Below, in pieces: positions 1 to 5,038 of a DNA stretch of 46,444 bases. Numbering within the stretch: the first letter of the stretch is position 1; each line of letters begins with the position of its first letter. The notes under the pieces were generated by a model. The model worked only from the letters and a program-made list of their open reading frames with translations. It was not told the DNA's origin and made no database searches. The position numbers and the translations under genes were made by a program. The stretch lies in assembly GCF_016653465.1 (NCBI RefSeq), contig NZ_NHSQ01000070.1, forward strand, positions 1-46,444, written 5' to 3'. This stretch comes from Thiocystis minor. Its GTDB lineage: Bacteria > Pseudomonadota > Gammaproteobacteria > Chromatiales > Chromatiaceae.

Positions 1-93
1 GCAGTCGAAAAAAGAATCGAGCAAATGCGGGTCAGGCATGAGCAAAGACGCAAGGATATCGAACGCCATTACAAGCTGACTGCAACAGGATAG
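1..93 (+). CDS. C-terminal end of an unknown protein (partial)
   Basis: An open frame runs from the window edge for 30 codons to a TAG at 91-93. The peptide is strongly charged (EKRIEQMRVRHEQRRKDIE) and probably helical. It stops one base before the stop codon of the oppositely oriented methyltransferase fragment. That arrangement would fit the tail of a mobile-element gene that truncated the neighbour, but I do not recognise the family and the rest lies outside the window. Confidence 0.4.
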   Translation, partial: AVEKRIEQMRVRHEQRRKDIERHYKLTATG

Positions 94-477
94 TCAATAT
101 GCCTGAATGCAAAGTGACAAAGTAGAACTAATCAACCCATTATTTTGAATGAAATCGTCAATTGCCAAACAGCCGTGCAACTGGGGTTCAAAACCAATGT
201 AATGGCGTTTTTCATCAATTTCCAAAAACTTAAGAAATGTCTGCCCAACGTTGGCTCCGACATCGATGAAGGTGCCTTTTCTTAAGCGCAGGATTGTTTT
301 AATCAGCAAATTCAGCTCGGGCTCATACTGACGAGACTTGCTGACGAACTTAACAAGAGAGTTTGCGTATGCGCCCTTGACAAGGTATTGCCGATGACCT
401 ACTGGAATAGATTTTTTTTGCGACAGGAATAAAAGACGAGCGAAGTCTTTGGCGTTTCTTAATAGGCTTTTAATCAT
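94..477 (-). pseudogene. FkbM-type methyltransferase, truncated N-terminal part
   Basis: The 127-residue frame contains the SAM-binding start of FkbM-family methyltransferases. Residues about 67-76 read KGTFIDVGAN (motif I), followed by YIGFEPQ, where the acidic residue normally contacts SAM, and a C-x-x-I-x-x-FI-x-x-N-x-L pattern. Family members are about 200-280 residues and continue with the rest of the Rossmann fold. Here the frame loses resemblance shortly after the NNGL stretch and stops. The FkbM family methylates hydroxyls of glycans or polyketides. The DNA is clearly more AT-rich than the rest of the window, suggesting transferred DNA. It meets an oppositely oriented gene end at 93/94, so truncation by insertion or deletion is the simplest reading. 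Confidence 0.65.
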
Positions 478-548: not shown

Positions 549-1565
549 TTAGGTGACCGAATGCGCCACGACCAGTCGATCCTGAATGTCGAGACCCACC
601 GGAATCGGGGGCAACCAACGGACATGCGCGGCGCGCTCGCCGTCACGCGATCCCGTCCAGAACGTGTGCCAGTGCGCGCGGCGCCCATGCGACCATGGCC
701 GCGCGTGTTCACCCACCGCGCCCGCTTCTCCAGGATCGCCGAGGCGGACCAGACGCATGGCCGCGCCGAGACGTTCGCCCACCACCCAATCGCGCACCTG
801 AGCGGGCGCGACCAGCACCCGCCCCTGCGTGCGGGTCTTCACGAGACGCGGGCGCGGCGGGCGCTGGTAGTCGGTCTCGTCAGCGCAGAGGTAGAGCAGG
901 AGGGCCAGGATCGGCGCCAGATCGCGGGCGACCTGCGCGGCGCCGGCGTGCTCGCAGCCGGATGCCTTGTCGGAAAAGTCCGTCACGGCCCGATTCCAGG
1001 CGACGTCATGGGTCGCGTGCGCCGAGGCCAACAAGGAACCGTGCTCCAGGCGCAACGGCACCGGGAGCAAATGCAGGTCGCGGTGTTCGCTATCGAGGAG
1101 CAGGCGCAGTTCGGCATGACCGTCCCGCAGGTCATGCTCCAGGCTGGCGTAGACGCCGATGATCGGCATCCCCGAGAAGGACAGATCCGGTGTCTCCAGA
1201 TAGACACCCCAGGACGGGAGGCGAAACAGCAGGGCATCCGCCAGATCGCCCGCCAGCGGGGTCGCGATCAGCGCGGCGTAGAGGTCGGGATCGAAGCGGT
1301 ACACTCCCTGCGTCGTGCGCCAAGCGCCCAGCGTCGCGAGACGGGCGAGATCGACCACCCGCTCAAGGGTCGGCGTCGGTTCATCCCAGCGCTGGCGGGC
1401 AATGATCCACCAGCGCGCGAGCGGCAGATAACACCAGTCGGGCCAGACTCCCCGGTTGCGATCGGCGCGAATCCGGTCAGCCTGAATCCAGGCTTCGGGA
1501 TAGCGTTTTGAAATCCAGTTGACGTGCTTGCGTTGTCGAATGCCGTGGGCTTTGTTGCGTCCCAT
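549..1565 (-). CDS. AcrVA2-family anti-CRISPR-like protein
   Basis: This 338-residue protein matches, block by block and in the same order, my memory of Moraxella bovoculi AcrVA2 (about 320 residues). The blocks are GAWRTTQGVYRFD (80-92; AcrVA2 has GAWRNTLGIY), LPSWGVYLET (116-125; LPDWCVYVDI), a hydrophobic ALLLYLCADE block (221-230), VGERLGAAMR (262-271; IGERLGSEVR), RPWSHGRRAHWHTFWTG (289-305; RPHIRRGHWHGYWQG) and VRWLPPIPVG (315-324; VRWQPAVFV). AcrVA2 lowers Cas12a levels by acting on the nascent Cas12a N-terminus and its mRNA. Whether this homologue does so is unknown; homologues occur in many bacteria that lack Cas12a. No cas gene or CRISPR array is in the window. It is the second gene of a minus-strand pair, 65 bases after a 67-residue protein. 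The start ATG has only a weak ribosome site. Confidence 0.85.
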   Translation of the reverse strand: MGRNKAHGIRQRKHVNWISKRYPEAWIQADRIRADRNRGVWPDWCYLPLARWWIIARQRWDEPTPTLERVVDLARLATLGAWRTTQGVYRFDPDLYAALIATPLAGDLADALLFRLPSWGVYLETPDLSFSGMPIIGVYASLEHDLRDGHAELRLLLDSEHRDLHLLPVPLRLEHGSLLASAHATHDVAWNRAVTDFSDKASGCEHAGAAQVARDLAPILALLLYLCADETDYQRPPRPRLVKTRTQGRVLVAPAQVRDWVVGERLGAAMRLVRLGDPGEAGAVGEHARPWSHGRRAHWHTFWTGSRDGERAAHVRWLPPIPVGLDIQDRLVVAHSVT

Positions 1566-1630: not shown

Positions 1631-1834
1631 TCAGATCGTCTCGACTCGCGCGTCTTTCAGTTCGCGGTTTTGTTGCAGCAAATCCCTTGCCGCGAGGTCG
1701 GCCGCTTTAAAGCCACATATTTTTTCGATGGCGACGAAACGCTGATAGTTGGCGTCATAGCCAACGACACAGAACAGACCAAGAGTCATATCGGCGCGAT
1801 AGGTTCGGGAAAAACGGCCAGGTAGATTAGTCAT
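1631..1834 (-). CDS. Small protein of unknown function upstream of the AcrVA2 homologue
   Basis: This is a 67-residue protein beginning MTNLPGRFSRTYR. I prefer this start over one seven codons upstream because a good ribosome site, CCAGGAGC, lies eight bases before this ATG. It has no membrane segment or helix-turn-helix that I can see. The middle (LGLFCVVGYDANYQRFVAIE) looks like short beta strands, and the C-terminal half (KAADLAARDLLQQNRELKDAR) looks like one amphipathic helix. It sits immediately upstream of, and is probably co-transcribed with, the AcrVA2-like gene. Known anti-CRISPR operons often pair the inhibitor with a small Aca repressor, but this protein lacks a recognisable DNA-binding motif, so I do not call it Aca. 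Confidence 0.55.
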   Translation of the reverse strand: MTNLPGRFSRTYRADMTLGLFCVVGYDANYQRFVAIEKICGFKAADLAARDLLQQNRELKDARVETI

Positions 1835-2285
1835 GGCGGATGCTCCTGGAGCCATACCCCGTGACCGACGGGGCGACGGTATGGGCTAAAACTCAAGATC
1901 GCAATAAATTCTAATTAATCATGGGTAGGATTTTTATCCGTGGAACTACTCATATCGGATCATCGAGTAACACACATCGTCACTTCCCGATAAGTCATGG
2001 CAGCCTTGGCTGAAGATATCCGTTAGAGTGCCCCATCGCTTCTTCCCCAATCGCTTCCCGCGACTTGTCCTACGGCATGCCCACCCCGATTCAACTCCCT
2101 GGCATACTGGGCGCCGACCGCATCCGCCGGTGAAACAGTCGGTGGAGCCGATCGAAACGCTGGTTGAGAGAAGCCAACGCCAAACAGCTACGTCACGCCG
2201 ATCGGCAACAACGGTTTCGCCTGACTCTCCAGCACTACGTCCCAATGCCTGAGCTTCCGTCGCCAGCCACAGGCGTCACATGGAC
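1835..2285. other. 451-base stretch without a convincing gene
   Basis: The part next to the small gene (about 1885-1945) is AT-rich and should hold the minus-strand promoter of the acrVA2-like pair, but no clear -35/-10 pair could be chosen. The remaining 300 bases have short open frames on both strands without ribosome sites or recognisable domains. They may be decayed coding DNA. I see no RNA gene here. Confidence 0.4.
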
Positions 2286-2744
2286 TCATCCAGTCGGACC
2301 GATCACTCGCAGCTTGGCGGCGATGAAGGCGCCATGCGGCACATGAAGCAGGTTCGCGACCTTGCGCACCAGATACTCCTCGTACTTGCAGAGTTCCTCG
2401 TTGGCGTAAGCCACGCGCCAGAGTCGTTCGATCAGGATCGTTTTCTGTTCCGGACTGAAATGGGCGTTGATGAGCGAGGTGAACTGATGGTAATCGGTCG
2501 CCTGTTCGCGCTCTTCATCGGCGCACTCGATCAACTCCCTGGCCTGTTCCGGCGTCAGTCCGAAATGCTCCCGAACCGCCGTCAGGATCGCCGCCTGCTG
2601 CGACTCCGTCACTTGGTCGTCCATGTGCGCCATTTCCAGCAGCAGGGCCGCTGCGGCGCATCGGGCCGACTGGTCCGGATCCGGAGCGGACGGCGCGTCC
2701 GCCGACAGATAGGTATCGAAAAACGTGCGAATCTGGCTCAGCAT
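2286..2744 (-). CDS. TerB-like protein (tellurite-resistance/DjlA N-domain family)
   Basis: This is a 152-residue, all-helical, acidic protein. The TerB fold is indicated by the first helix pair with MDDQVTESQQAAIL (41-54), the central EQARELIECADEE (66-78) and the ANEELCKYEEYLVRKVANLL stretch (114-133); together these match the family's acidic metal-binding pattern. Length is typical of stand-alone TerB proteins (about 150). A ribosome site, GGAGAAG, precedes the ATG. No other ter genes (terA, C, D, E, Z) are nearby, so a role in tellurite resistance should not be assumed. Such solitary TerB proteins are common in proteobacteria and their role is uncertain. Confidence 0.8.
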   Translation of the reverse strand: MLSQIRTFFDTYLSADAPSAPDPDQSARCAAAALLLEMAHMDDQVTESQQAAILTAVREHFGLTPEQARELIECADEEREQATDYHQFTSLINAHFSPEQKTILIERLWRVAYANEELCKYEEYLVRKVANLLHVPHGAFIAAKLRVIGPTG

Positions 2745-4246: not shown

Positions 4247-5038
4247 ATGACATATTGCGTGGGACTCCTGCTCGATCAGGGCCTGGTCATGGCCTCCGAC
4301 TCGCGTACTAACGCGGGTGTCGATTACATCTCCTCGTACAGCAAGCTGCATGTGTTCCAGCCGGCGCCGGACCGGCTCTTCGTCCTCATGGCCGCCGGCA
4401 GTCTGGCGACCACGCGGGAGGTTCTGGACCGGATCCACCGCGATCTGGATCAGGCAGTCCATCCCAAGCCCAGCGCCTATCAACAGGCCCCCGGCGTCAC
4501 CTTGCTGAATATCAACTATCTGTTCGAGGCGGCGACCTATATCGGACAGGTGAGTCTGGCGGTACAGAACGAACATGGTCCGGCGTTGCGTCAGGCTGGC
4601 GTCAGTGGAGAGGCGACGTTCATTCTGGGCGGGCAGATCGCCGGTCAGCCGCAGGGTCTGTTTCTGATCTATCCCCAGGGCAATGCGATCGCGGCCACCC
4701 CGGAGACGCCCTATCTGCAGATCGGGGAAAGCAAATACGGCAAGCCGGCACTGGACCACATTGCCAAGACCGGCCTGACGCTCGACGACGGCGCGCGGCT
4801 CTGCCTGGTGTCGCTGATCGGGACCACGCGCTCCAACCTGAGCGTGGGGCCGCCGTTCGAGGTGGCGGTCTGCGCCAAGGATCTGTTCGCACCCTCCTAC
4901 CGGCTGAAGCTAGACGCGGATTCGCCCGAACTGGAGACGCTCACCCAACAGTGGGGCGAGAACTTCCGCCAGGCATTCCGCGCGCTGCCGCGCTTCGGTT
5001 GGGAGATTGGAGAGACTCAGGCCGCGCCTCCGCTCTAA
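4247..5038 (+). CDS. Anbu-type proteasome-like peptidase
   Basis: This is a 263-residue Ntn-hydrolase of the Anbu (ancestral beta-subunit) group. The N-terminus MTYCVG is the family signature. Removal of Met would expose Thr as the nucleophile, with Asp18 (ASDSRTNAGVD) and Lys33 (SYSKLHVF) in the positions of the proteasome catalytic Asp17 and Lys33. ILGGQIAG and the family's length of about 240-260 also fit. In many genomes Anbu lies with an alpha-E protein, a transglutaminase-like protease and an ATP-grasp-type protein. None of those is adjacent here. Its TAA stop is supplied by the left arm of a palindromic repeat. Substrates of Anbu remain unclear. Confidence 0.9.
   Translation: MTYCVGLLLDQGLVMASDSRTNAGVDYISSYSKLHVFQPAPDRLFVLMAAGSLATTREVLDRIHRDLDQAVHPKPSAYQQAPGVTLLNINYLFEAATYIGQVSLAVQNEHGPALRQAGVSGEATFILGGQIAGQPQGLFLIYPQGNAIAATPETPYLQIGESKYGKPALDHIAKTGLTLDDGARLCLVSLIGTTRSNLSVGPPFEVAVCAKDLFAPSYRLKLDADSPELETLTQQWGENFRQAFRALPRFGWEIGETQAAPPL

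Follow-up and report, generated by a model that had tools for sequence, protein, structure and literature searches.

The Thiocystis minor gene studied here is a full-length member of the AcrVA2/FinQ family (PHROG_6160), as judged by its sequence, and it is sited in a mobile patch with its reading frame intact. It lies in the first 46444 bases (hereafter the window) of a 168294-base contig (NZ_NHSQ01000070.1) of a draft genome of 5.3 Mb, and is a new member of a family that was already known. By analogy with AcrVA2, we give an even chance to the reading that its product is a mobile-element silencer that works as AcrVA2 does, i.e. that it would recognise a target, probably as a nascent chain, and remove the mRNA of that target, which would not be Cas12a.

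549..1565, minus strand: AcrVA2/FinQ-family gene (338 aa, ATG start at 1565)

In a phmmer search against the PDB chains, residues 73-323 of the window protein matched AcrVA2 (7ci1/7ci2, E=2.7e-13). A 15-row profile containing no AcrVA2-clade row and no FinQ row recovered 7ci1 with E=4.2e-40 (profile positions 13-323, chain 10-319). PHROG_6160, which identifies the Moraxella phage Mcat5 protein with E=1.7e-106 and the Shewanella phage Y11 protein with E=1.1e-58, matched the window protein with E=5.6e-37 over residues 21-327. These significant profile matches bear out the original prediction, made from the letters alone, that the gene is an AcrVA2-family homologue. Against three relatives the window protein scored 44-71 bits, whereas the best of its 500 shuffled copies reached 8.0 bits; no family was found for it in Pfam, NCBIfam or PADLOC. 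The start codon is backed by a congeneric relative on contig C10 of genome G091 (MERNRNRAHGIRQRKHV versus MGRNKAHGIRQRKHV). The C-terminal block (residues 262-321) reads VGERLG...HGRRAHWHTFWTG...VRWLPP, so that GERLG (residues 263-267), RRAHWHTFWTG and the downstream VRW occur in the order first described. The likeness to AcrVA2 (Moraxella; PDB 7CI1, 7CI2; PHROG_6160) extends over the full length, including W82, P117 and G137, and comprises the same C-terminal HxRRxHWH...G...W..P..V block. However, the window gene belongs to a separate clade, its host is, by kinship, a phototrophic-type member of the Chromatiaceae without detected Cas12a, and no acr gene adjoins it within the annotated stretch (the open reading frame (ORF) annotation of the window covers positions up to 11371).

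Sequence comparison also makes FinQ a full-length member of the AcrVA2 family. The plasmid record used starts FinQ too late, for the frame stays open over a further 104 codons upstream, as far as an ATG; read from there, FinQ is a protein of 363 aa (L032:4728-5816, plus strand) that aligns end to end with both AcrVA2 and the window protein. It scored 70.9 bits to the window protein and 62.4-67.9 bits to the Mcat5 and Shewanella proteins, the shuffle control for these scores being that made with the window protein and not with FinQ. The shortened FinQ matched 7CI1 with E=5.6e-12. The FinQ of IncI plasmids is thus like the window protein over its whole length and carries the same C-terminal block. 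It differs in setting, since it lies beside trbA-trbC on a conjugative plasmid, whereas no transfer gene accompanies the window gene among the annotated ORFs, and it lies not on an IncI plasmid near trb but on a chromosomal contig (168 kb) with housekeeping genes beside the patch; moreover, FinQ sits on a long branch and its exact place in the tree is unsure.

The fertility inhibitor FinQ, known since 1989 to inhibit transcription (work listed in PMC8744291) and with no described partner, reportedly halts transcription of the F tra operon, at several sites and independently of Rho (PMC8744291, in excerpt). AcrVA2 reportedly recognises the nascent LSKT peptide of Cas12a, upon which the Cas12a mRNA is lost (PMC13131331, in excerpt; meeting notes in PMC12908700), and the excerpt of PMC13131331 describes as unknown how the mRNA is removed. 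The membership of AcrVA2 and FinQ in one family suggests one shared way of silencing chosen genes. No paper treating AcrVA2 together with FinQ, or FinQ together with anti-CRISPR proteins, was found in the literature searched; preprints and most subscription papers lay outside it, and the link may be printed elsewhere.

Conservation was analysed on 23 rows found without use of the motif, the window gene among them. Ten columns are invariant in all 23 (W82, P117, G137, L224, G267, H293, R295, H298, G305 and W317), and five of these (G267, H293, R295, H298 and G305), or six counting W317, fall in the C-terminal block. The window protein has H293, R295, R296, H298, W299, H300, G305 and W317 of this block, in which the two invariant histidines and the arginine look like an active or RNA-binding site. 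The equivalents of H293, R295 and H298 stand at 325, 327 and 330 of the Shewanella protein, whose residues 314-358 are described by its authors as a loosely packed C-terminal domain (PMC10846135, in excerpt).

Two congeneric genomes hold three intact short ORFs that align to the window protein up to about residue 259 and end before VGERLG and HxRRxHWH:

L147:6490-7167, plus strand: short form, 225 aa (genome G091, contig C10)
L148:5942-6532, minus strand: short form, 196 aa (genome G091, contig C7)
L151:3492-4058, plus strand: short form, 188 aa (genome G114, contig C57)

They match columns 7-261 of the full-length family profile with E=1.8e-31. In a quick tree, from which eight long-branch viral rows and two distant rows of the T. 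minor genome were left out, they form one lineage (SH-like approximate likelihood ratio test, SH-aLRT, 97) that is sister to the window gene (92) and lies inside full-length relatives (97 with viral contig L047). Since they are nested among full-length relatives, the tree points to a single loss of the C-terminal part. Two of the short forms, compared over 186 codons, gave a nonsynonymous divergence (dN) of 0.121 and a synonymous divergence (dS) of 0.687 (dN/dS of about 0.18), the third being too distant for dS. The HxRRxH motif is absent from every frame of the three loci, and tblastn with C-terminal pieces of the family gave weak matches only, the best of them (E 0.007) about 5 kb away and another (E 0.013) overlapping the end of one short ORF from the other strand, so that no convincing remnant of the block was seen there. 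Short forms occur in two of the 194 genomes of the host family searched and were found in no plasmid: the six plasmid records that matched cover <80% of the query, and those recognised are full-length relatives. That a separate lineage is sister to the window gene and stops just before its C-terminal block argues for the two parts of the protein being separable. Two of the short-form loci have in common a downstream gene starting M(S/N)FPCV and further neighbours, and on contig C7 of G091 (L018, L148) the short form faces, head to head, a 110-aa ORF of the other strand that was judged by eye to be transposase-like.

Relatives are found on mobile elements. With tblastn, 548 plasmid records carried one, 514 of them typed as conjugative, in a count dominated by enterobacterial records (Escherichia 310, Salmonella 147); the annotated plasmid rows are mainly finQ among the matches listed. 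Relatives were also found in 57 phage records at E<=0.1 and, by motif and tblastn, at 106 loci of viral contigs. The best 80 of these 106 were kept, and 8 near-identical loci and 6 with odd frames were left out before alignment and tree; the viral rows had been found via the motif HxRR[AG]HWH. In genomes the family is patchy: it was matched in 10 of 146 genomes of the host family and in 3 of 369 genomes of the class, that of T. minor included, with up to five candidates scored per genome, and a single-protein search of the genome contigs gave one relative. A tree of 91 rows placed the AcrVA2 proteins of Moraxella and Shewanella in a four-member clade of their own (100/99). The window gene lies outside this clade, in a neighbourhood of plasmid and viral genes, with viral contig L047 as its partner (97/93). 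The bootstrap of this tree was still unsettled, and the placement of several long branches, FinQ included, is unsure.

Of two plasmid relatives that each cover at least 95% of the query, that of Thioflavicoccus mobilis pTHIMO01 is 37.8% and that of Deinococcus proteolyticus pDEIPR02 40.2% identical to the window protein. Unlike the chromosomal window gene, both are plasmid-borne; the pDEIPR02 gene comes after a replication initiator gene and the pTHIMO01 gene after a BREX pglZ-brxL pair, where the order pglZ, brxL, small gene, family gene (L005:2976-9029) makes up the end of a BREX-type cluster. Moraxella phage Mcat5 has its AcrVA2-like gene two genes before AKI27193.1 (L033:3293-4261, 4592-4966), which is listed as AcrIF14 (PMC7556299). 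On viral contigs L046, L056 and L059, PAPS reductase-like and ParB-like genes, so judged by eye, adjoin the family gene. No cluster of neighbours within 4 kb was common to more than 5 of the 72 dereplicated viral loci. We therefore rejected a conserved neighbour as a pointer to the target; the lack of one is as expected of a stand-alone effector.

The T. minor genome holds a second copy of the gene on contig C25, near a KfrA_N gene and a tyrosine recombinase, that has lost its first 109 residues and carries a one-base frameshift. Over 190 shared codons the two copies differ by a dN of 0.117 and a dS of 0.428, with 27, 18 and 49 changes at the first, second and third codon positions, a pattern of sequence constraint. 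The family profile also gave weak matches (E=4.1e-8 and 6.7e-10) to two further proteins of this genome, on contigs C45 and C46:

L123:859-1995, plus strand: distant superfamily member (contig C46)
L124:1462-2631, minus strand: distant superfamily member (contig C45)

A five-row profile of their group aligned with the family profile over 227 columns (97.5% probability, E=6.4e-12), and, as these proteins end in PHWRRGH(F/L)RR, they have the C-terminal block too. The Allochromatium vinosum plasmid relative comes after an HNH endonuclease gene, and the ORF preceding the L123 gene resembles HNH by eye.

The surroundings of the window gene form an accessory patch of the chromosome, as had been proposed, and one bounded on its left by an insertion sequence (IS):

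1..93, plus strand: C-terminal end of a DDE-type transposase, from a multi-copy IS at the contig edge (repeat match to about 131)
94..477, minus strand: FkbM-family methyltransferase fragment (TIGR01444), low in guanine plus cytosine (GC), part of the mosaic patch
1631..1855, minus strand: small ORF upstream of the window gene, start probably 1834; may not be a gene
1976..2168, no strand: right border of the patch, formed by a repeat that recurs in congener G512
2286..2744, minus strand: TerB-family gene, at whose 3' end (2298-2305) chromosomal synteny with congeners G132, G512 and G057 starts

Copies of the repeat at 1-93 are scattered over many sites in the genus, among them other contigs of the same genome, G132 and G512; the frame of one G132 copy runs on into a long transposase-like frame ('DDE-type' was judged by eye). 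TIGR01444 matched 94..477 with E=5.6e-5 and 23.6 bits, under its curated cut-off of 37.7, and reached only position 45 of 143 of the profile. From 2298 onward the sequence is syntenic with G132 and G512 (about 88%) and G057 (about 76%); positions 1-2297 had no match within the fetched flanks of these three genomes, all of which keep the neighbouring genes. Three other genomes of the genus, G091, G114 and G511, lack a match to the TerB-gltS flank and are thus uninformative about the site. The GC content is 0.42 at 1-500, 0.67-0.69 in the gene, 0.52 just past it and 0.59-0.66 in the core. Since the contig starts inside the IS, the patch is known only rightward, where the adjoining genes, as far as 11.4 kb, serve housekeeping or transport. 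The window gene was probably left in the chromosome by mobile DNA. The small ORF at 1631..1855 had no plasmid match and, among the 146 genomes of the host family, matched itself only; as no relatives were found, it was rejected as a partner of the window gene.

The silencer reading draws on homology to AcrVA2 and FinQ, both reported to remove one target's message, on relatives that sit on plasmids, phages and viral contigs and are patchy in genomes, and on the invariant columns, the dN/dS against the C25 copy and the short forms that lack the C-terminal part. Recognition of the target, probably as a nascent chain, would fall to the N-terminal and middle part of the protein, and removal of the target mRNA, whether directly or by recruitment, to the invariant C-terminal block (HxRRxHWH...G...W..P..V). 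The target protein would probably belong either to a competing element or to one of the host's defences, Cas12a excepted. We infer the activity of the protein in its host, the nascent-chain recognition, the mRNA loss and the division of labour between the two parts.

Several observations weigh against this reading. Conservation is as high in the middle part as it is in the C-terminal block (2.6-2.7 bits in the 20-residue bins over 81-120, 2.5-2.6 over 281-320), so that a variable reader joined to a constant effector is only partly borne out. The window protein keeps one of the ten residues of the peptide pocket docked in the Shewanella phage paper; Mcat5, of the AcrVA2 clade, likewise keeps one of ten, and we set this pocket aside as a test of a change of target. 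The effect of FinQ is described, in the excerpt of PMC8744291, as a Rho-independent effect on transcription and not as mRNA decay, and its mechanism may therefore differ from that of AcrVA2. Two promoter-like sites were found in 94-2300, both at 114-168 (shuffle mean 1.0), and none just upstream of the gene. Finally, the truncation and frameshift of the C25 copy may mean that the entire set in this genome is decaying.

The last point bears on the view that the window gene is a relic of mobile DNA without function in its host, which would also fit the damage to its sister copy and its position, flanked by an IS end and a repeat and next to the fragment of a methyltransferase gene. We consider this very unlikely, because the frame is intact, the gene keeps all ten columns invariant in the 23 rows (of which it is one), and its changes against the C25 copy fall mainly at third codon positions. 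The family might instead dispense with the nascent chain and act either at the level of transcription or on the completed protein, the translation dependence of AcrVA2 being a special case; an excerpt of PMC13131331 has AcrVA2 also bind Cas12a peptide 618-634, away from the N-terminus. The same excerpt reports that the activity of AcrVA2 depends on the N-terminal amino acids of nascent Cas12a, whatever the codons or the promoter. AcrVA2 and FinQ also have the C-terminal block in common, and we hold this alternative to be unlikely.

The original prediction had offered two functions, protection of a mobile element against type V-A CRISPR or the same nascent-chain recognition applied to another target. 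It had noted that no cas gene is near, which is true for the annotated ORFs. The search for cas12a in the genome and its relatives that it had proposed gave no Cas12a with TIGR04330 in T. minor or in any of the 11 further genomes that matched the family (0 of 12; the matches in G091 and G114 are short forms alone, those in G098 and G127 fragments alone). The profile is able to find the protein, as it did in 1 of the 369 class genomes; with PF18516 none was detected in T. minor either, a profile that matched no control above cut-off. That the window protein is a working type V-A anti-CRISPR guarding a mobile element against Cas12a would agree with its homology to AcrVA2, and such an element may encounter Cas12a in other hosts. 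We nevertheless regard this as highly improbable given the rarity of Cas12a in these genomes, a tree in which the AcrVA2 proteins form a clade of their own (100/99) that excludes the gene, and the nature of its closest relatives, which are plasmid, phage and viral-contig genes from Proteobacteria and Deinococcota without a common acr neighbour. A role as a Cas12a inhibitor is thus not supported. The other-target option is the better of the two: the full-length homologue FinQ, with the F tra operon as its reported target, supports the change of target; recognition would, on this option, again be of the nascent chain.

Another CRISPR-Cas effector could be the target, for example the type I-C Cas proteins of the host itself, whose genome has a type I-C locus on contig C155 (L158) with an array of at least 26 repeats (31-base unit) running to the contig end. 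A Cas1 match was present in 12 of the 12 genomes with a family match; however, the Cas1 search covered only these 12 genomes, so that the count comes without a base rate, and some of the 12 matches are weak and perhaps not linked to CRISPR. Moreover, the family member FinQ reportedly acts on transfer genes and not on Cas (PMC8744291, in excerpt), and we think silencing of another Cas effector quite unlikely. The spacers of the genome, compared with the collected loci, gave besides their own array only 15-base matches among the matches listed.

Beyond the window gene, AcrVA2 and FinQ may belong to one large family of nascent-chain-guided silencers that mobile elements turn on each other and on their hosts. 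The N-terminal and middle part would read a peptide at the ribosome, the invariant C-terminal block would destroy the message or halt its synthesis, and the short forms would be readers lacking the effector, maybe antidotes that protect the target against the complete protein; we put this forward tentatively and with some doubt. If AcrVA2 and FinQ do form one family, each would explain the other: AcrVA2 would point to a nascent Tra protein as the target of FinQ, and FinQ acting on the F plasmid in E. coli K-12 would offer a simple model for the mechanism of AcrVA2. The short forms may serve as a natural experiment that indicates where the reader part ends and the effector part begins. It is the link to FinQ, together with these short forms, that makes the window gene worth following.
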